Shown here in pieces: positions 16,719 to 29,668 of a DNA stretch of 59,456 nt. Made by a program: the position numbers and the translations under genes. Numbering within the stretch: position 1 is the stretch's first letter; every line of letters starts with the position of its first letter. The notes under the pieces were generated by a model. The model was given only the letters and a program-made list of their open reading frames with translations, did no database searches and had not been told where the DNA came from. Where the stretch lies: positions 211,792 through 271,247 of the forward strand of contig JAHEGG010000001.1 in assembly GCA_024639845.1 (NCBI GenBank). Direction: 5' to 3'. Origin of the DNA: Microbacteriaceae bacterium. GTDB lineage: Bacteria > Actinomycetota > Actinomycetes > Actinomycetales > Microbacteriaceae.

Positions 16719-16932
16719 TTTGCCCCCTGTTTAGGTGTAATTCTACTTTTCCTATACCCCACTACTAAGACTAGGCACCTCGTCAGACAGCGCAAAAACT
16801 AATAAATACAAATAACGCACAATGCCCTTTGTCTGTTCTTTTTCTGCTGGTTTTGATCCGTGTCAGCAACTTCAATAATGGAAAGCAGGCAGTTTTGCTT
16901 GCGTTCACTTGATGTGGATAAGGAAAGAATTG

Positions 16933-19900
16933 ATGAACAAGAAACTTGTAAGTGCACTTTTGCTTCCGGGCCTAGCACTTGGTACGAACCTCGTTGCGAC
17001 AGTATCAGCTCAGGCTGTTACTCAGGCTGAGCTAGATACACTCGGTGAGCGAATTGCAGAGATGCAGATCGGCGCAACTAAGACGGCCCTGACCGCACAA
17101 CTTGCTGCACTACAAGAGGCACTCGATGTGGTGAACGCCACTTCGGCAGTCGAAGCCATCGAGGCGAGTGCATCAACCGCCGGGATTGCCAATGCCAATC
17201 TGAAGTTAACTGCTGTAAATGCGAGCGCGGCAAAAACCGCGTTAGAAGCTCGCGTCGAGATTGTGGCAACCGCATGGGCAACCGCCAAAGTCGTAGTTAC
17301 CGAAACCTCTCACACAGCAGCGTCAAGAACCGTTGCGCAAGAGGCAGTCAATGTTCTGGCCGCAGGCGCAACCAAAACTGCTCTTCAGGCTCGCATCGAT
17401 TCCGAACAGGCTGACGCAGTAACTGCTGCGCAAGCGGCAATTCTGTCTGCTCAGAACAGCGACGCACAGGTTGATCTGGACGCAGCTCAGGTTCTAGTAA
17501 ATGAAGTCTTGTCGCCTGACCAGGCAGCACTGCAGGACGACATCAACGCCCAAGCGCCTGAGACGGCCGTAGCTGAGGCCGAGTCTTCAAGTCTGCAGGC
17601 AGACCTAAACGCGGCTCAGATTCTGGTCAACTTGCTTCCATTCGGTGCAGCCCGTGCAATTCTTCAGGCCCGTATCGTGACCGAGCAGGGCGTTATCAAC
17701 GGTGTAGCAAGCGCTGCTGTAACAAACGCCGAGAATTCCGACACCCAAGGTGACCTTGACGCAGCAAATAGTCTGGTTCAGGCTCTTCCGGCTTCGGCAG
17801 TGAAGACATCGCTTGTTACCCGAATCGTTGATCAGCAGGCAGTCGTTGACGCGAATGCCTCTGCAGCAATTGCTGCCGCTACGGCATCGGTAGTCACAGC
17901 CGAAGGTGCCAACACTCCTGCAAGCCGCGCCACTGCTCTCGCTCTCGTGAACGCACTTCCTGCCGGCGCGACCAAAACAGGTCTTTCAGGCCGACTCACT
18001 TATGTTCTTCAAGTAATCAATGCGATCAATGCCATTGATACCGCAGAGGCCAGTGACGTTCAGGGTGACCTAGACGCCGCTCAGATTCTCGTTTCAGCTC
18101 TTACAAACGGCGCCACCAAGACCGCTCAGCAAGCACGTATCACCGCTCAGCAGGCAGTTATCGACCAAAACACAGTCGATGCCGCCACTGCTTTGGTCAA
18201 CGCCGCAGTGCTCAGTGACCTTCTTGTCGATTGGAATGACGCAAACGTTGCAGTAACAGCTCTACCGGCTGGAGCAGCCAAAACCACTTTGGTCGCAACT
18301 CTTGCAGCTCAAGTTCCTTACACTCTCGTTGCACAAGCCGAGCTAAGTGATCTCCAGGCAGACCTTAACACTGCTTCTGCTGCGGTGAACTCTATGTCTA
18401 CCGGCGTTGCAAAACTGGCTCTGCAAGACCGTGTTGACGCTGAACAGCTTGTCATCAATGGCTTGGCAACCGCCGCCGTCGTTGCAGCCGAAGTCGCAGA
18501 CACCCAGGGAACTCACGACACCGCATTCGCTCTCGTGAACGCCCTACCTTCGTCGCCGGTGAGAACCTCGTTGCTTGCCCGGTTGGCAGCAGAGCAAATA
18601 GTTATAAACGCCGCTGCGTCCGCCGCCGCGGCCGCCGCTATTGCCGCGGCCGAGGCCGCCGCACTTACGGCTGCTACAAACTCAGTCACTGCAGCAGAGG
18701 CTTCGGCAGACTACGAAGACTGGGATGACGCGAACGCACTTGTGACCGCTCTACCTACCGGCCTTGCCAAAGCGGTTCTTGTGAGCCGACTGGCAGCTAT
18801 CGTTGCCGCCGTCGAAGCAAATCGTCCAGCTGATTCTGTCGCACACGCTGTTAGCGAGGGCACTCAGTCTTCTCTCAACTACGCCAGCGCTCTCGTGTCA
18901 GCAATGCCCGACGGTGCAGCCAAGAATGTCCTGTTGACCGCGATTATCAATCAACAGTTAGTTCTAAACACCGCAGCAACGGCATCGGTGGCTGTGGCAG
19001 AAGCTTCAGAAATTCAGTCTGACTTGGATGCGGCTCTCGATATTGTTGTCACCTTGCCTTCCGGATCGGTTCGAACATCTCTTCTCGCTCGATTGGCAAC
19101 TTTGCAAGGCGAAGTGAATGACATTGCTACGGCAGCTGTCACAGCGGCAGAACTAGCAGACACACAGGTTTCTTGGAACACCGCCTCCGCTCTTGTTGGT
19201 CAATTGGCTACTTCGAGTACCAAGACCGCTTTGCAGGCTAGGTTGGTGGCACAGCAAACTGCCATTGACCTTGCCGCATACACCGCTTCGGTCAACGCAG
19301 CCACCGGGCTTGTGGAAGATGCAGAAGACAGTGATGTTCAGGTGGACTTGAACGCGGCTCAGGCAGCGGTCACGGCCCTTATTGCTGGCGCAGACAAGAC
19401 TGCACTTCAGTCCCGAGTAACTGCACAGCAGATAATCGTCGATGCAACAGAATCGGTTACAACCGCGGCGACGTCACTCGTCCAAGGTGACATCGATGCT
19501 GCACTACTCGAGGTTGAAGCTCTAGTTAGCGGCTCTGCCAAGACAGCACTACTCGCAGAGGTTGCAGCTGTCCAGGAGGCGGCCGATTTGAGCGATGCTC
19601 CTGCCGGTGCAATCCGTGATGCTGCAAATGCGGCTGTAGTCACAGCAGAAGCTCAACACTCTCAAGTTTCAGTGAATGCTGCAAACTCGGCGATCGCTTT
19701 GCTTCCTTCTGGGCTTTTGAAGGTCAGGTTGTCGGATCGCACCGCGGCCGTAGCGGCAACTGTATCTGCAGTTGAAGCCGCTGTTGCCACTGCTGAAGCA
19801 GCAGTTACTCAAAGCGCCCTGAACTCTGCAGTCACTCTTATCGATGCCCTACCATCAGGCGCAGGCAAGACAGGTTTCAGCTCAAGAGCTGCGGCTGTGC

Positions 19901-21066
19901 AGGTGAGCATAAACGGCACCAATGCCGTTGCAGCGCTCGCAGATGCAATTGCTGCCGCGAACCAGGCAGTGGCTTCGGACTCGTCCGACGACCTGGCCTC
20001 TGCATCCGTTCTTGTAAACGCGCTTCCAGCAAGCGCGATCAAGAGTGCGCTTATGGACGTCATTTCAGCTCAGACCGATGTCATAGATGCAAATACAACG
20101 GCTGCTCTCGCTACCGCCGACAAGATTGCTGCTCTGGCTGCTCAATCGGCAGCTGAGGTGGCGCGTACCGTTGCTCTGACTGCAAAGGCTACTGCGGAGG
20201 CTGCTCAGGCTGCTGCTGTGGCGGCTCAGGGATCTGCCGAGTCTGACAAGGCTGCTGCTTTGGCGGCTAAGGCTACTGCGGAGGCTGCTCAGGCTGCTGC
20301 TGTGGCGGCTCAGGGATCTGCCGAGTCTGACAAGGCTGCTGCTTTGGCGGCCAAGGCTACTGCCGAGTCTGACAAGGCTGCTGCTTTGGCGGCTAAGGCT
20401 ACTGCCGAGTCTGACAAGGCTGCTGCTTTGGCGGCTAAGGCTACTGCCGAGTCTGACAAGGCTGCTGCTTTGGCGGCTAAGGCTACTGCGGAGGCTGCTC
20501 AGGCTACGGCAGAAGCTGCCAAATCTGCTGCTCTAGAAGGTCAGGCGCTGGCTCAGGCCAACGCTGCCGAACTTGCTGCGACAGCTGCATCTGCAACGGC
20601 AGCTAAGGAAGTTGCTCTTGCTGCGAAGGCTGCAGCAGAAGCCGACAGTGCTGTCTCAAAGGCAGAACGCACCAAGAACTCGGCTGACGTTGATGCCGCA
20701 TCCGCTTTGGTGAGTGCTTTGCCAGCCGGTGCTAACAAGACTGATCTTGAGGTTCGCCTGGGTGCGGTTCAGGCATCTTCTGAAGGCAAGGGAAGACTTT
20801 TGTCACTCGTAACCTTCGCTCCTGGTAGCAGCAACTTGTCGTCTTCGGCTCTCAAGAGCCTGACCGCCAAGGCCAAGGCTGCCAAGGGCCACAAGATTGT
20901 GTTCGTTCAGGTGACTGGTGTTGGTGCAAACCGAGACCTATCTCTTGCCCGCGCGGTCTCAATCATCTCGGCGCTCAAAAAGCTCGGCGTAACCGCGCGA
21001 GTCAGTTTGTCGACCCAGACCAAGGCCTCGAGTGTTGCTCGAGTGGCCTTCAACTGGCAGGACTAG
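16933..21066 (+). CDS. Giant alanine-rich repeat surface protein with OmpA-like C-terminal domain
   Basis: 1377 residues. The ATG at 16933 follows AAGGAAAG; codons at 16909 and 16912 are in frame but lack a ribosome site. A signal peptide ends near residue 26 (VSAQA). About 20 degenerate repeats of 45-65 residues follow, with consensus ALVxALPxGAxKTALxARLxAxQ, predicted to be all helical. Residues about 1080-1185 form a heptad-like coiled coil of KATAESDKAAALAA units. Residues about 1286-1377 resemble an OmpA-type peptidoglycan-binding domain (VTFAPGSSNL, NRDLSLARAVSIISALKKLGV). It is probably an extended cell-wall-tethered fibre. Strong terminator after it. Adhesion is an inference. Confidence 0.8.
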   Translation: MNKKLVSALLLPGLALGTNLVATVSAQAVTQAELDTLGERIAEMQIGATKTALTAQLAALQEALDVVNATSAVEAIEASASTAGIANANLKLTAVNASAAKTALEARVEIVATAWATAKVVVTETSHTAASRTVAQEAVNVLAAGATKTALQARIDSEQADAVTAAQAAILSAQNSDAQVDLDAAQVLVNEVLSPDQAALQDDINAQAPETAVAEAESSSLQADLNAAQILVNLLPFGAARAILQARIVTEQGVINGVASAAVTNAENSDTQGDLDAANSLVQALPASAVKTSLVTRIVDQQAVVDANASAAIAAATASVVTAEGANTPASRATALALVNALPAGATKTGLSGRLTYVLQVINAINAIDTAEASDVQGDLDAAQILVSALTNGATKTAQQARITAQQAVIDQNTVDAATALVNAAVLSDLLVDWNDANVAVTALPAGAAKTTLVATLAAQVPYTLVAQAELSDLQADLNTASAAVNSMSTGVAKLALQDRVDAEQLVINGLATAAVVAAEVADTQGTHDTAFALVNALPSSPVRTSLLARLAAEQIVINAAASAAAAAAIAAAEAAALTAATNSVTAAEASADYEDWDDANALVTALPTGLAKAVLVSRLAAIVAAVEANRPADSVAHAVSEGTQSSLNYASALVSAMPDGAAKNVLLTAIINQQLVLNTAATASVAVAEASEIQSDLDAALDIVVTLPSGSVRTSLLARLATLQGEVNDIATAAVTAAELADTQVSWNTASALVGQLATSSTKTALQARLVAQQTAIDLAAYTASVNAATGLVEDAEDSDVQVDLNAAQAAVTALIAGADKTALQSRVTAQQIIVDATESVTTAATSLVQGDIDAALLEVEALVSGSAKTALLAEVAAVQEAADLSDAPAGAIRDAANAAVVTAEAQHSQVSVNAANSAIALLPSGLLKVRLSDRTAAVAATVSAVEAAVATAEAAVTQSALNSAVTLIDALPSGAGKTGFSSRAAAVQVSINGTNAVAALADAIAAANQAVASDSSDDLASASVLVNALPASAIKSALMDVISAQTDVIDANTTAALATADKIAALAAQSAAEVARTVALTAKATAEAAQAAAVAAQGSAESDKAAALAAKATAEAAQAAAVAAQGSAESDKAAALAAKATAESDKAAALAAKATAESDKAAALAAKATAESDKAAALAAKATAEAAQATAEAAKSAALEGQALAQANAAELAATAASATAAKEVALAAKAAAEADSAVSKAERTKNSADVDAASALVSALPAGANKTDLEVRLGAVQASSEGKGRLLSLVTFAPGSSNLSSSALKSLTAKAKAAKGHKIVFVQVTGVGANRDLSLARAVSIISALKKLGVTARVSLSTQTKASSVARVAFNWQD
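20185..20478 (+). repeat. Near-perfect tandem DNA repeats inside the giant gene
   Basis: Two 84-bp units (20185-20268, 20269-20352) are followed by three 42-bp units (20353, 20395, 20437) that are a deleted form of the same unit. Identity is almost complete, unlike the diverged protein repeats upstream, so the array is recent and probably variable in copy number. Confidence 0.9.
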
Positions 21067-24624: not shown

Positions 24625-24730
24625 TTGGCTCCTTGATTCGTTTGAGTAAAGACTACTGAACGAACATGTAGTTCGGCTCGATGAAACCTACTTCTTTGGA
24701 GGCTTGCCTGCGCTGCTTGCCGCAGCGGGC

Positions 24731-24979
24731 CTAACTGATCTTGACTGCAGAGCTAGTTACATGGGCAGTGGTATGTCCGGGAGCGCTTTGTGAAACCCTC
24801 ACCGAAATCTTCTTTCCCTTTTGGGTGGAGAGTGTCTTGTAGGTAGATTTGGTTGCGCCAGAAATGGACTTTCCGTCGAGTAGCCACTGATAAGTAATTT
24901 GTATTCCTCCAACTACCAAGGTGAACCACTCGATGCTCTCCTTTGAAACTGGGAGTCTTTCATGTAAGCCGAGTTCACG
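24731..24979 (-). pseudogene. Remnant of an Ig-like domain of a secreted protein
   Basis: An 83-codon open stretch between two stops. Its last ~55 codons clearly encode the Ig-like module used by secreted proteins here (TYQWLLDGKSISGATKSTYK, GKKISVRVSQSAPG). No start with a ribosome site, no signal peptide and no upstream partner are present. It looks like the 3' end of a gene whose front was lost, probably when the adjoining A+T-rich DNA arrived. Confidence 0.65.
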
Positions 24980-25234
24980 TTATGGCGTTGGCAATTTTTG
25001 GAAATTATGAGGATGAGGGCCAAGCTTCGACCAGGCAGGATAGCTGACCTCTGACCATCGCCTTTTTATTGCACTTTGCCCAATGGCTAATCCTCAATTT
25101 CGAAATTTTCTGTGGAGTGTTCAAGAGTGCCGATTCTCAAACTTGATTGAAGAAAAAAGCAAAGTGAAGAGTTGTCGCAAAGGTTCTGGGCCTTTTATTT
25201 AAACTCATCTGGTATCTCAAAGGAGGTCGCTTTA
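24980..25234. other. Non-coding A+T-rich stretch
   Basis: No gene, tRNA or clear terminator seen between the Ig remnant and the end of the DUF2075 gene. Base composition is clearly more A+T-rich than the flanking purA and purL regions. Confidence 0.5.
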
Positions 25235-26956
25235 CTACGAATTTATTTTTAGCTTTAGATAATTTCTTAGCCTTGCGTCACATACATACAAGTAAGTGCC
25301 TCTAATTCCTCGCGTTAGCAAGACTCGGTAAATGCTAAGCACGTATTGAAGCAAGTCGTCGTCGGTGTAATTAATGCCAAGAGTCGGGTTGTTTTCTTTT
25401 CCCTTTTTGTCAAAGTAGTTTTCTCTTGAGAAAGCAACAGACTGTGTTTCCTCATTGAAAAACAAGTCAGGGCCTATGATCACACCGGCGTAATTGAGGT
25501 CATACCCCTGGATGGTGTGAATTGAGCCGACTTCCTCTGCCGAGGTAGGGGAGTTCACCCAATCGTAGTTGCGACGGTTCCATGGAAGACGTATGCCTTC
25601 GATTTCAATATCGAAATCTGCCTTCCCTCCTTTTGACTGCCACGGCCAAGCAAAACCTGCCAGAAGACGAGATAATCCGTGTTCTTGATCTCTCTTTTGA
25701 ATCGCTTGGTGCATTTCGGCAAAGCTATCGAAAAAGCGGAGGTCGTAGTCGCCGAAAGTTTTTGGTTGCCCCTCATACTCCCCTCGGATGACTGAGCCGA
25801 TGTATTCGATGTAGTCAGAACCACCTGCCACTCTCAACTGTGAAATCAGCCGGAATAGGGTGCCTTCGTTTCTCGCCTTGGCTACTAGAGGTGTGAGATG
25901 TTTTGGTTGAAGGTCTGCAGGCTTCACGCTTTGGGCGGTGTCCAGCAGGAAAATCTGGTGCTTACTGCGCGCTTTAATCCAATCGAGCTGGGTTTTAGTT
26001 TTGTCGTCTGAGCCAAACAACTTTACGTTTATCGCAGCGTACTTAAGATTTCGCTCTGCGGCTGGCTGGTTTGCCCTCTGCTGTAGTCGGTGAGTCTCGT
26101 CAACTATCAGTAGGTCAAACTGAGTATCGCTGTCGCCCACCTCAAATGGGTCAAGCACCATGTCAGCCGACAGCCCTGGCGTTCTGCCGAAAACTTTCTG
26201 AACCGTCTTCCTGAGTGAAATCTGTGGGATCACGAGGCCAATTTTTAGGTTGTGGAGCAATTCGCGGAAACCAACTTGAAAAAAGTCCGAGAACAAACTG
26301 TCTGATTCGAGGGGTTCCATTTCATCAAATAGGGAGATGTCCTTCAACAACTTGACCAAGTAAATCGCAACAATGGTCTTTCCTGTTCCCGGGTCTCCCT
26401 GAATCACAGTGCTTGAATTGGAGTCTTTCTCAAGCTCGTGGATCAAGCTTTCTAGGAGTCCTTCGATAGCGATGGCTTGGTCTGTTGTGAGTGCCTTAAA
26501 GGGCGAATACTTGAACAGGTCACTGTTGACAATGTCTGGAATTGTTCTTGAAAGTACACCGTCATTCACAAGTGAATCGAAAATCTCCTTGAACGACTCT
26601 CGATAGTAATCTCGCTGAAAATAGTCTGAGTCGGTGATTCCGGCATTCCCATTCAAAACCCGGTATTTCTCATCAGCTGCGAAATATCGAATCAAGTGTG
26701 ATTCCAGATCTAGACAGGCGGACTTGTTGAAGTCGTTTCGAAAAATAACTCGCGCTTCACGAAGATGTTGTTTGCTGGGCGTACCTAGGTGACTGCTGAA
26801 TCTCATGGCGGCGTTTGAAGTTTCACCCACGTAGATATGGTTCGCACCGTTTATCGTATAAACAACCGGCCAGTTCGAGTTTTCAATCCGCTCGGATGCC
26901 CATGCCCCGAGCACATCGCGGTCAAAAGGTAGTTTCTCGATTCTAAAGTCGGTCAT
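25235..26956 (-). CDS. GIY-YIG nuclease fused to DUF2075 (Schlafen-type) P-loop ATPase/helicase-like protein
   Basis: 573 residues from the ATG at 26956, which overlaps the end of the MazG-like gene by 14 nt. Residues 30-95 form a GIY-YIG nuclease: Y33, Y42-V-G44, R52, H56 and E85 fit the catalytic set. Residues 180-573 are a DUF2075 ATPase with Walker A GDPGTGKT (K193), Walker B DLLIVDETHR (D286, E287), a TIQGYDLNYAGVIIG block and the C-terminal arginine motif RVLLTRGIRG (from residue 544). Codon use is visibly more A+T-rich than purL next door, suggesting transfer. It would cut nucleic acid under ATP control. An antiviral role is an inference from architecture and cassette layout. Confidence 0.85.
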   Translation of the reverse strand: MTDFRIEKLPFDRDVLGAWASERIENSNWPVVYTINGANHIYVGETSNAAMRFSSHLGTPSKQHLREARVIFRNDFNKSACLDLESHLIRYFAADEKYRVLNGNAGITDSDYFQRDYYRESFKEIFDSLVNDGVLSRTIPDIVNSDLFKYSPFKALTTDQAIAIEGLLESLIHELEKDSNSSTVIQGDPGTGKTIVAIYLVKLLKDISLFDEMEPLESDSLFSDFFQVGFRELLHNLKIGLVIPQISLRKTVQKVFGRTPGLSADMVLDPFEVGDSDTQFDLLIVDETHRLQQRANQPAAERNLKYAAINVKLFGSDDKTKTQLDWIKARSKHQIFLLDTAQSVKPADLQPKHLTPLVAKARNEGTLFRLISQLRVAGGSDYIEYIGSVIRGEYEGQPKTFGDYDLRFFDSFAEMHQAIQKRDQEHGLSRLLAGFAWPWQSKGGKADFDIEIEGIRLPWNRRNYDWVNSPTSAEEVGSIHTIQGYDLNYAGVIIGPDLFFNEETQSVAFSRENYFDKKGKENNPTLGINYTDDDLLQYVLSIYRVLLTRGIRGTYLYVCDARLRNYLKLKINS

Positions 26957-27263
26957 ATTTGTCGCTTTTCCCTCGCGATTTATCGACAGGATACTTAGAT
27001 TCGTTTTTTGCAATCTTTTCGAGGATGAGTTCGTCAATGTCGACGCCTAAGTCGTCAGCCAAATGTAGACAGTAGGCAAGAACGTCGGCTAGCTCCTCTC
27101 GAACTCTTGCTTCGTCAGGGGCCTCGCCCCACTGATAAAGCTCCAAGAGTTCCGCCGCCTCAATGGAAATGCTTTTTGCTAGGTTTTCGCGGGTATGAAA
27201 TTGCTTCCAGTCGCGGTCCGCCACGAACTGTCTCAATGCATCTAACGCTCGGTTATGCCCCAT
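26943..27263 (-). CDS. MazG-like nucleotide pyrophosphohydrolase
   Basis: 106 residues, typical of single-domain MazG/dCTPase-like proteins. The metal-binding glutamates of the family are present as E35xxE38 (IEAAELLE) and E57xxD60 (EELAD), after the block RDWKQFHT. It would hydrolyse an (d)NTP to the monophosphate and pyrophosphate. It lies 35 bp after purL on the same strand but has its own TAGACT box 7 nt before the ATG, so it may be transcribed alone or by read-through. Its 3' end overlaps the DUF2075 gene, so the two are translated together. Confidence 0.88.
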   Translation of the reverse strand: MGHNRALDALRQFVADRDWKQFHTRENLAKSISIEAAELLELYQWGEAPDEARVREELADVLAYCLHLADDLGVDIDELILEKIAKNESKYPVDKSRGKSDKYDRL

Positions 27264-27267
27264 AACC
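27251..27267. repeat. Perfect inverted repeat over the MazG start codon
   Basis: GGTTATG (27251-27257), CCC, CATAACC (27261-27267). The start codon is the CAT of the right arm. It could be an operator or an RNA hairpin that hides the start. Confidence 0.75.
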
Positions 27268-27270
27268 TAG

Positions 27271-27276
27271 AGTCTA
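27271..27276 (-). promoter_or_regulatory. -10 box of the MazG-DUF2075 pair, leaderless
   Basis: TAGACT on the minus strand, 7 nt before the MazG ATG, between purL and the cassette. Confidence 0.5.
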
Positions 27277-27298
27277 TCTTTGGCTTCTGAAGTTGAAA

Positions 27299-29668
27299 CT
27301 AACCAAACAGCTCAGCAAGCGTGCCCCCATGCACACCCGCAAGCTCAGTGAGCGACCAAGATGCCACGCCCTGAATCTCGAGGCGGGCATCCGTGCCGTC
27401 ACCACTGGCCGTGCCACCCGAAGGCGACCCAGCCGAGCCACCCAGCACCGCGCGACCATCGGTAACGCCGATGCGCAACACCGGAATTCCGCGAGCCTCG
27501 CACAGGCCAACAAACTTGACGTCGTCTTCGCGTCCGACCGAAACCAAGACGCGGCCGGTTGACTCACTAAACAGCGCAGCGGTGTCATCGATGCCGCCAA
27601 CCTGCTTGATCTCATCGAGCCAAACCCTCGCACCAACACCGAAGCGCAGCACCGACTCAACCAAGGCCTGAGCCAAACCGCCCTCGCTCAAATCGTGCGC
27701 CGAAGCAATCAAACCCTGCTCTGAAGCCGCATTCAACGCAGAAGCCAGCGACAGCTCGAAAGCCAGGTCGACAACCGGCGGCTTGCCACCGAGGTGGTCG
27801 TGAATCACGCCGGCCCACACCGAGCCGTCGAGTTCGTCGCGTGTGGTGCCGAGCAGATAAATGTTGTGGCCCTCATCTTGCCAGCCCGAAGGAATGCGGC
27901 GAGCAACGTCGTCGATCACGCCGAGCACACCGACAACCGGGGTTGGGTGAATGGCAACGTCGCCGGTCTGGTTATAAAAACTCACGTTTCCGCCGGTCAC
28001 CGGAATGCCGAGTGCCAAACATCCGTCGGCCAAACCAGCGGTGGCCTGCTTGAACTGCCACATGACCTCTGGGTTCTCTGGTGAACCAAAGTTGAGACAG
28101 TTGGTTACGGCCATAGGGGTGGCACCGGTCACGGCAACGTTGCGATAAGCCTCGGCCAGAGCCAGCTGCGCGCCGGCATAAGGGTCGAGTTGGCCATAGC
28201 GACCGTTGGCATCGGTGGCGATTGAAATGCCTAGGCCAGTTTCTTCGCTCACGCGCACCATTCCGCCGTCATCTGGCATGGCCAGCGCGGTGTTGCCGCC
28301 AACATAGTGGTCGTATTGGTTGGTGATCCAGTTTTTCGAAGCTTGGTTAGGCGACGAAACAACTTCGACAATCTGCTCGGCCAACGCCGCCGCATCAACA
28401 GCGCGTGGCAAACGAGCCGACGAATCGGCGTTCAGTGCGTCGATCCACGCTGGGTAGGCAACGGGGCGCTCATAAACCGGGCCGTCGTGAGCCACGGTGC
28501 GCGGGGGAACGTTGACAATCTCTTCGTCACCCCAGTTGATATAAAGCCTCGGTTCGCGAATCACTTCGCCGAGCACCGAATGCTCAACCTCCCACTTGTC
28601 GACAATCGCGGTGAAGGCGGCCACATCACGCTTCGGCACGATAGCCATCATGCGCTCCTGCGACTCCGACATCAGAATCTCTTCGGGGGTCAGCGACTCA
28701 TCGCGCAGCAGCACGTTGCGCAGTTGCACGCGCATACCTGCCTGGCCGTTCGAAGCCAACTCGGATGTGGCACAAGACAAACCGGCACCACCGAGGTCTT
28801 GAATACCGGCCACAACACCAGCGGCATAGAGCTCGAGGCAGCACTCAATGAGCACCTTCTCGGCGAACGGGTCGCCAACCTGCACGGCCGGGCGGCGGCT
28901 CGGGCCATCGGCGTCGAAGGTCTCTGATGCCAGCACCGAAACGCCACCGATGCCATCGGCACCGGTGCGAGCACCAAACAAAATCACCTGATCGCCAGGG
29001 TTCGACGCCTTGGCAAGCTTCAAATCTTCGTGACGCAGCGCGCCAACCGACAGCGCATTCACCAGCGGGTTACCTTGATAAACCTTGTCGAACACGGTCT
29101 CGCCGCCGATGTTTGGCAGCCCGAGGCAGTTGCCATAGAACGAAATTCCGCTCACCACGCCGTGCACCACGCGTGCGGTGTCGGGGTGCGATACATCGCC
29201 GAATCGAAGCTGATCCATCACGGCTATCGGGCGTGCACCCATCGTCAAAATGTCGCGAACAATGCCACCAACGCCCGTCGCCGCACCCTGAAATGGCTCT
29301 ATATAAGAGGGATGGTTGTGGCTCTCGACCTTGAATGTGACGGCCCAGCCTTCACCAATGTCGACCACGCCGGCGTTCTCGCCCATGCCAACCATCAGGT
29401 GTTCGCGCATCGCGTCGGTGACCTTCTCGCCAAACTGACGCAGATAAATCTTGCTCGACTTATACGAGCAGTGCTCCGACCACATCACCGAATACATCGC
29501 GAGCTCGGCGCTGGTTGGGCGGCGTCCCAAAATCTCACGGATGCGCGCATACTCGTCTTCTTTTAGCCCGAGTTCCTTCCACGGTTGGTGCTTCTCAGGT
29601 GTCGCGGCGGCGTTGGCCGTGGTGTCGACGTTGCTCGGTGCAGCCGAGCCCTTCTTGAAAAGTGCCAT
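27299..29668 (-). CDS. purL: Phosphoribosylformylglycinamidine synthase, large subunit
   Basis: 789 residues, the small (three-component) PurL type. It makes formylglycinamidine ribonucleotide from FGAR with ATP and ammonia supplied by PurQ. Typical blocks are present: [31 protein letters not shown] and a second PurM-like half with [12 protein letters not shown]. Its ATG overlaps the PurQ stop by one base (TAATG). The N-terminal ~25 residues before KELGL are a non-conserved tail. It is third in a purS-purQ-purL operon. Confidence 0.96.

Follow-up and report, generated by a model that had tools for sequence, protein, structure and literature searches.

Several described enzymes bear on the gene pair reported here. 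First, SauUSI, a type IV restriction enzyme, cuts DNA carrying 5-methylcytosine (5mC) or 5-hydroxymethylcytosine with ATP, as described in passages of PMC3874153. Second, hydrolysis of 5-methyl-deoxycytidine triphosphate (5-methyl-dCTP) is recorded for Escherichia coli Orf135, mouse RS21-C6 and human DCTPP1 in passages of PMC10742078, and DCTPP1 is credited in parts of PMC7162842 with high affinity for dCTP and modified dCTP and with a role in homeostasis of the deoxynucleoside triphosphate (dNTP) pool. Third, Nudix enzymes are presented as sanitisers of the nucleotide pool in passages of PMC7162842 and PMC10742078. Here, we describe a MazG-family gene that overlaps a gene for a fusion of a GIY-YIG nuclease with a Schlafen-group-3 helicase, in a 59,456-nucleotide stretch of DNA (“the window”) from a Microbacteriaceae bacterium (contig JAHEGG010000001.1). 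The host is a small, freshwater-type bacterium with a genome assembly of 1.40 Mb in 20 contigs. We put at roughly one in two the probability that the pair is a defence-type module of two translationally coupled proteins that moves horizontally, in which MazG cleaves dCTP, possibly modified, and its partner cuts DNA; this half of the weight goes to a defence pair with a dCTP-type pyrophosphatase and leaves its target unsettled.

The pair and its immediate surroundings, in window coordinates, are as follows:

26943-27263, minus strand: MazG-family gene, 106 residues (PF12643)
25235-26956, minus strand: gene for the fusion of GIY-YIG and Schlafen-group-3 helicase, 573 residues (PF09848, PF01541)
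26943-26956, minus strand: conserved overlap of 14 nucleotides (nt), comprising the MazG end (KYDRL-stop) and the start of the large gene (MTDF)
24625-27298, no strand: A+T-rich stretch from purL to the UPF0114 gene, containing the pair and a 62-residue open reading frame (ORF); G+C fraction (GC) 0.471 versus 0.567
24731-24919, minus strand: 62-residue ORF, possible remnant of a surface-repeat gene, resembling a 501-residue open frame of the same genome

The large gene starts with the ATG at 26956; the 600-residue, TTG-started ORF listed for it is an upstream extension. purL ends at 27299, and 35 nt separate it from the MazG gene. An earlier note, made from the letters of the window alone, had described two genes with a 14-nt overlap and a 573-residue large protein as a candidate defence cassette, and the ORFs confirm this layout.

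The two genes stay together among close relatives. In a scan of one genome per species, the large protein had 339 relatives; the closest 80, nearly all titled as Actinomycetota taxa, were kept. In 76 of these best 80, MazG lies directly upstream of the helicase, and 74 of the 76 share the identical 14-nt offset, with the start codon placed before the MazG end. The pairwise identities of MazG and the large protein also correlate (Mantel r 0.78, with 0 of 1000 permutations as high), although shared descent would also yield correlated divergence of two proteins. The 80 loci and the genus set considered below are not independent, as L073, L077, L096 and L127 match genus genomes G013, G064, G076 and G028. 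Some genomes contain the pair twice: on a Leucobacter contig, with ~16 kb between the copies and overlapping flanks (L131/L132), and in a Micropruina genome, where the copies are on separate scaffolds (L097/L098).

By sequence and predicted fold, the small protein is an all-alpha pyrophosphohydrolase of the DCTPP1/RS21-C6 branch of the MazG superfamily. Pfam matches the MazG-like family PF12643 to it with an E-value of 1.6e-20. A profile built from 27 relatives has as its best PDB match the archaeal pyrophosphatase 4qgp (E 1.6e-28), followed by RS21-C6/dCTP pyrophosphatase 1 (E 4.6e-25, residues 7-106 aligned); E. coli MazG is absent from the 12 matches down to E 0.01. The predicted structure has a predicted local distance difference test (pLDDT) score of 86.8, and Foldseek matches it to 4qgp (E 1.2e-5, 44% identity) and to mouse dCTPase with 5-Me-dCMP (6sqw; E 2e-5, 36% identity), with a weaker match to E. 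coli MazG 3cra (E 0.05). An identity as E. coli-type MazG was rejected because the PDB profile search and Foldseek both favour DCTPP1. The nucleotide-degrading half proposed by the earlier note therefore stands as a pyrophosphatase, narrowed to the DCTPP1 type, and not as a MazG of the E. coli type.

The metal motif E35-x2-E38 ... E57-x2-D60 of the small protein is intact. Among the 76 paired relatives, E57, D60 and Y64 are kept in all, and E35, E38, E41 and W45 in 75, with a gap in the remaining one. By our count, W19, E35, E38, W45, E57, D60 and Y64 align with W47, E63, E66, W73, E95, D98 and Y102 of RS21-C6. Both tryptophans (W19 and W45, matching W47 and W73) are conserved; in RS21-C6, W47, W73 and the other aligned residues have roles in the pocket. 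The small protein is probably a cleaver of cytosine nucleotides, i.e., dCTP and 5-substituted dCTP.

The large protein is probably a DNA-cutting helicase, as its domains suggest: a GIY-YIG endonuclease at residues ~25-110 and a superfamily 1 (SF1)-type helicase at ~150-570. Pfam reports SLFN-g3_helicase (PF09848) at E 1.5e-63, with 215.7 bits against a cut-off of 24. This family, Schlafen group 3, is presumably the DUF2075 of the earlier note, whose call of a DUF2075/Schlafen-type domain it bears out; we also take the GIY-YIG/DUF2075 fusion as such to be listed in NCBI's domain database. The GIY-YIG family (PF01541) is matched at E 7.8e-4 and 20.1 bits, slightly below the Pfam cut-off of 22.6, and exceeds that cut-off in the relatives L177, L178, L151 and L153. 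There are also weak N-terminal profile matches to endonuclease II (2wsh, E 0.006, residues 25-90) and to an intron-associated endonuclease (1mk0, E 0.022). The catalytic motif of GIY-YIG enzymes consists of Tyr, Tyr, Arg, His/Tyr, Glu and Asn. Residues Y33, Y42, G44, R52, H56, E85 and N102 are invariant in 76 of 76 paired relatives, as are the Walker K193 and D286/E287; the nuclease and ATPase residues that had been called intact (Y33, Y42, R52, H56, E85; K193, D286-E287) are all among them. The predicted structure (pLDDT 88.6) indicates an SF1-type helicase, with Foldseek matches to Upf1, Dna2, RecBCD chain D, SLFN14 and Dda at E 2e-10 to 4e-7 and low TM-scores (~0.3).

Given the Schlafen-group-3 helicase domain and the presence of SLFN14 among the Foldseek matches, the large protein might instead act on RNA (tRNA or rRNA), like animal Schlafens, with MazG as an accessory. 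We consider this very improbable, as Pfam matches down to E 0.01 include no Schlafen RNase core (AlbA/Slfn), several neighbours of the pair are DNA restriction genes, and the nuclease is GIY-YIG or, in relatives, a PD-(D/E)XK-like motif. Both of these nuclease types are typical of DNA cutting.

The DNA that holds the pair differs in composition from its surroundings. GC is 0.476 in the pair region (25235-27263) and 0.567 in the window outside the insert; elsewhere in the window, 0 of 528 overlapping 2029-base windows are as A+T-rich, the lowest GC being 0.520, in keeping with the A+T-rich insert that had been proposed. Third-position GC is 0.52-0.53 in the pair, 0.69 in purL and 0.74 in purA. 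The broken gene noticed beside the pair is a plausible remnant: the 62-residue ORF matches the 501-residue open frame with 44% identity over 34 residues (E 7e-5), which falls short of proof.

Within the genus, the pair is patchy and has a preferred site. MazG occurs in 8 of 60 genomes, in each case with the large gene as its neighbour, which is full length in 7 and a stub in 1. In the latter genome, G003, the large gene is a 149-residue GIY-YIG stub (L055:5989-6438) next to an open MazG frame, which may represent decay or a minimal natural variant. We compared 18 genus regions, chosen non-randomly, of which 12 hold purL (13 including the window); one, G001, ends at purL, leaving 12 readable genomes (the window locus and loci including L052, L056, L057, L059, L060 and L063). 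Defence-type genes lie downstream of purL in 9 of the 12:

The pair, up to ~10 kb from purL: G000, G013, G028, G070 and G076
Type II restriction-modification (RM): G016
Type I RM: G006
DISARM DrmA/DrmB: G009
Mrr-like nuclease: G074

For G072, G075 and G079, a search of part of their genes recognised no defence-type genes downstream of purL; in G072, UPF0114 follows purL with no pair between them. In G028, G070 and G076, a protein of ~1045 residues with PLD, helicase and DUF3427 domains is encoded between purL and the pair; the one of the three that was scanned, from G028, matches PADLOC mREase_IV (E 5e-255). The copies of the pair in G003 and G064 have a common flanking gene that by our reading resembles serA, and this flank possibly marks a second insertion site. 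In this genus, the region that follows purL is a hotspot of defence genes. The pair is mobile, defence-type cargo, because it is patchy in the genus and lies mostly after purL, where relatives carry restriction or DISARM genes. The earlier note had staked its proposal on homologues that stay paired and on an island that is abnormal in composition, not fixed in the genus and defensive in content; the closest relatives, the phylum sample below and the purL-downstream site agree with it on each count.

Beyond the genus, we searched an evenly drawn phylum sample of 296 genomes at E 1e-20 and found a related helicase in 21, with MazG adjacent in 13 (one divergent). In 7 of these 13, the match to a GIY-YIG-containing profile extends into the N-terminal domain, and PF01541 was found in 2 of the 3 that were scanned (L151 and L153, not L155). 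In the other 6 (L156, L158, L159, L160, L163 and L164), GIY-YIG is replaced by an N-terminal invariant R.D ... ELKQW, a pattern drawn from 8 proteins that include two whose genomes have no MazG next to the helicase. Pfam reported no nuclease family in these N-termini; from the motif, we read the stretch as PD-(D/E)XK-like. The nuclease domain seems exchangeable while the helicase and MazG remain together.

A converse survey of DCTPP1-like MazG covered 396 phylum genomes. The gene is present in 37, of which 30 provided loci (G207, G325, G397 and G452 were left out of the neighbour count), and the helicase adjoins it in at least 17. In G145, G359 and G466, it adjoins an HNH_2 endonuclease. Loci with HNH_2 beside DCTPP1-like MazG, a second nuclease partner, are L227:1861-2781, L229:558-1478, L230:1857-2522 and L253:13157-14158.

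The pair is also found on mobile elements. Among 21 plasmid records matching the MazG of L. plantarum, the helicase is present as well in 11, at a distance of up to 1 kb in 6 and of ~3.6-10 kb in 5. The plasmid co-occurrences span Bacillota, Bacteroidota, Pseudomonadota and Actinomycetota, plus an archaeon, Halalkalicoccus, with a gap of 5 nt between helicase and MazG. MazG is likewise present in all four phage-collection records that contain the helicase. These records include unannotated fecal contigs, which may be of bacterial origin; a scan of the viral_contigs set found no relative. In a Microcystis phage record and a Hymenobacter plasmid (L254:5943-7961, L247:6783-8834), the gene immediately preceding MazG encodes a protein with tetratricopeptide (TPR) repeats, possibly a further partner.

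This distribution bears on the idea that the pair serves repair or house-cleaning without a phage role. MazG would clear damaged pyrimidine nucleotides, and the GIY-YIG/helicase protein would process lesions, comparable to UvrC and a helicase; GIY-YIG is also the fold of UvrC. The part of DCTPP1 in dNTP-pool homeostasis and the sanitising by Nudix enzymes, as given in passages of PMC7162842 and PMC10742078, fit such a function. We nevertheless hold it to be unlikely: the pair is present in a minority of genus genomes, is A+T-rich and sits at a site with RM and DISARM cargo, occurs on plasmids and in phage-collection records, has a truncated copy in G003, and appears to have exchanged its nuclease domain.

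The neighbours of the pair provide a further indication of function. We analyzed the flanks of the 80 loci, up to ~10 kb on each side and 1.33 Mb in total (51 loci have ~10 kb on both sides). A SauUSI-like protein lies within 10 kb in 9 of the 80 loci, two of the nine being profile seeds, and a tenth match is weak; a Nudix protein lies within 10 kb in 8, and the two occur together in 7. L096 and L127 are among the seeds of the SauUSI-like and Nudix profiles. SauUSI-like genes occur in 36 of 396 phylum genomes, and at ~3.3 Mb per genome we estimate that ~0.04 would be expected in 1.33 Mb of flank. The excess near the pair is far above chance; a general tendency of defence genes to cluster could account for it. 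A conserved third gene was set aside as a candidate: the recognised flank clusters are the SauUSI-like and Nudix proteins, and the ORF calls in the flanks include spurious ones.

Related gene orders are found in more distant genomes. On the L. plantarum plasmid, genes for Nudix, SauUSI-like, MazG and GIY-helicase proteins form a row. L. fermentum has Nudix, SauUSI-like (in pieces) and MazG genes on one replicon without the helicase (L257:4565-8312), and the GIY-helicase gene on another, directly beside the type III-A CRISPR genes cas6 and cas10 (L182:5905-10904). In Priestia, the order is Nudix (annotated MutT), MrcB_N, MazG and helicase, followed by type I RM genes. In Paenibacillus, an MrcB_N/HNH protein is encoded immediately upstream of the GIY-helicase, and a MazG lies ~10 kb off; Ligilactobacillus has HsdS/HsdM-like genes, then helicase and MazG; a fecal “phage” contig has SauUSI-like, MazG and GIY-helicase genes. 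MrcB_N reads modified DNA. NCBIfam PRK10546 (pyrimidine (deoxy)nucleoside triphosphate diphosphatase), which we take to be the NudG/Orf135 type, is the best model, or within a factor of two of the best, for the Nudix neighbours in G028 and G003, with scores below the curated cut-offs. The Nudix neighbours in L052 and L177 match PADLOC PDC-S07 (E 6e-38 and 2e-46). Elsewhere in the window, positions 16909-21066 encode an alanine-rich, 1385-residue repeat protein whose end looks, by our reading, like an OmpA-type peptidoglycan-binding region.

In the mechanism that we propose, the DCTPP1-type enzyme would cleave dCTP, together with 5-methyl- and 5-hydroxymethyl-dCTP, to the monophosphate. The SF1-type helicase would travel on DNA, and the GIY-YIG domain would cut it. 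The pyrophosphatase would hold dCTP, or its modified forms, low during the attack on foreign DNA. Low dCTP could starve a replicating invader; in addition or instead, cytosine derivatives from cut, modified phage DNA could be blocked from reuse in host DNA, where reused modified cytosines would draw modification-dependent nucleases. We infer these activities, the joint working of the two proteins and the invader as their target from the families, motifs, coupling, patchiness and neighbourhood described above. We place the emphasis on modified cytosine because two pyrophosphatase families with unlike folds, each including an enzyme recorded to hydrolyse 5-methyl-dCTP, are encoded close to modification-dependent nucleases at a minority of loci.

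The same pattern suggests, tentatively, a general layer of modification-dependent immunity, in which nucleases against modified DNA travel with pyrophosphatases of unrelated fold (DCTPP1-type MazG and Nudix) as a safety device. Modified cytosines, whether released or made by the phage, would perhaps be kept from both the host chromosome and the phage polymerase. One sanitiser-nuclease family might then unite MazG with helicases of the GIY-YIG or PD-(D/E)XK type and also with HNH nucleases. The Nudix neighbours are not uniformly NudG-like, which slightly lowers the probability of this general layer; it is a doubtful proposal, well behind the defence pair itself.

Several observations weigh against the defence pair as we propose it, or against the place of modified cytosine in it. 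First, the partnership is not universal: 4 of the 80 closest helicases lack an upstream MazG (L069, L072, L122 and L144), as do 8 of the 21 helicase genomes of the phylum sample an adjacent one, and further DCTPP1-like MazG genes of the phylum survey have no helicase within 1.5 kb. Second, the neighbours are mixed. For the L. plantarum Nudix protein, a general Nudix model is best, followed by MutT, below curated cut-offs, and the Nudix neighbours are not uniformly of the pyrimidine-nucleotide type, the one in Priestia being annotated as MutT. Of 30 SauUSI-like genes in the phylum sample, 2 have Nudix within 1.5 kb and 0 have MazG; on the figure of 2 in 30, the idea that SauUSI-like enzymes require a Nudix partner was dropped. 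Searches of the flanks of the 80 loci (single query each, E 1e-10) detected no relatives of HsdM, HsdR, DrmA or DrmB, and a type I RM neighbourhood as a general rule was set aside on this single-query search; N6 methylases, counted genome-wide, are present in 19 of the 50 carriers. Third, PADLOC 2.0.0 (2023) has no model for the pair: MazG is unmatched and the large protein has partial matches only (best E 1.6e-6). Without a strong match of both proteins, the pair has no named system there, as the earlier note had recognised none.

Fourth, many carriers keep enzymes that make 5mC. Methyltransferases were counted in the carrier genomes of 50 of the 80 loci (initially 52, minus L114 and L131). 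A cytosine-5 methyltransferase is present in 21 of the 50; among 149 genomes of the order, 74 have one (Fisher p 0.41). Five of the 80 loci have Dcm-like genes no more than 10 kb from the pair, L071 has a cytosine-5 methyltransferase gene at a distance of ~1 kb, and such a gene is also present in the genome that contains the window. A simple “5mC cutter” was set aside, since 5mC methyltransferases, expected to be scarce in carriers, are not clearly rarer there. These counts argue against indiscriminate cutting of 5mC DNA by the large protein. Because many carriers keep 5mC methyltransferases, the large protein either does not cut 5mC DNA or needs context or another modification.

That carriers do not clearly avoid 5mC methyltransferases would also suit a nucleotide-gated abortive defence, to which nucleotide modification is irrelevant. 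A drain of dNTPs, by MazG or by replication of the invader, would license a helicase-nuclease that nucleoside triphosphates (NTPs) otherwise restrain. Gabija, whose nuclease is held off by normal NTP levels, is a model for such gating, and a P-loop NTPase, a nuclease and a dNTP hydrolase are combined here in a single coupled operon. The SauUSI-like, MrcB_N and Nudix neighbours, by contrast, indicate modified cytosine in a minority of loci, and we rate nucleotide gating as rather improbable, on a par with the repair function.

With the present results, a widespread nuclease-helicase module with a tightly linked nucleotide enzyme as partner joins the candidate defence systems; it is unnamed in the sources searched. 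For the small protein, the label “MazG” is replaced by a concrete substrate prediction, namely dCTP and 5-substituted dCTP. The assignment of a DCTPP1-type MazG and the Nudix and SauUSI-like neighbours of some pairs are new here, and the pair may be an undescribed defence module. A description of it was not found in the titles, abstract starts and passages of the open-licence literature, preprints being outside that scope. If our proposal is true, cleaning of the nucleotide pool is tied to the restriction of DNA that may be modified, which would be one way for cells to escape self-attack after digesting modified phage DNA.

How does the pair compare with known systems? Gabija and other nuclease/ATPase defence systems share with it the two genes, a nuclease with an NTPase and possible nucleotide sensing; they differ in belonging to other families, and the pair has no PADLOC match of that kind. 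PADLOC PDC-S14 and PDC-S41 show weak local matches to the GIY-YIG part and the helicase end of the large protein, respectively, and neither these two nor PDC-S07 spans the window's large protein or its MazG partner. The likeness of the small protein to DCTPP1/RS21-C6 covers nearly the full sequence, the fold and the E-x2-E ... E-x2-D metal motif; the difference is that the window's MazG, known here from sequence and model, sits in an operon with a nuclease-helicase. Bacterial Schlafen defence proteins, cited in PMC12839542, share the Schlafen name, but the passages of that source concern Schlafen-family RNases, whereas the window's protein has the group-3 helicase and no reported RNase core. 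SauUSI, with its PLD nuclease, helicase and DUF3427, differs in its classes of nuclease and helicase, and Pfam gives no DUF3427 match in the window's large protein. Like that protein, SauUSI fuses a nuclease to a helicase-type NTPase in a single polypeptide, and a relative of it is encoded no more than 10 kb from the pair in 9 of the 80 loci.

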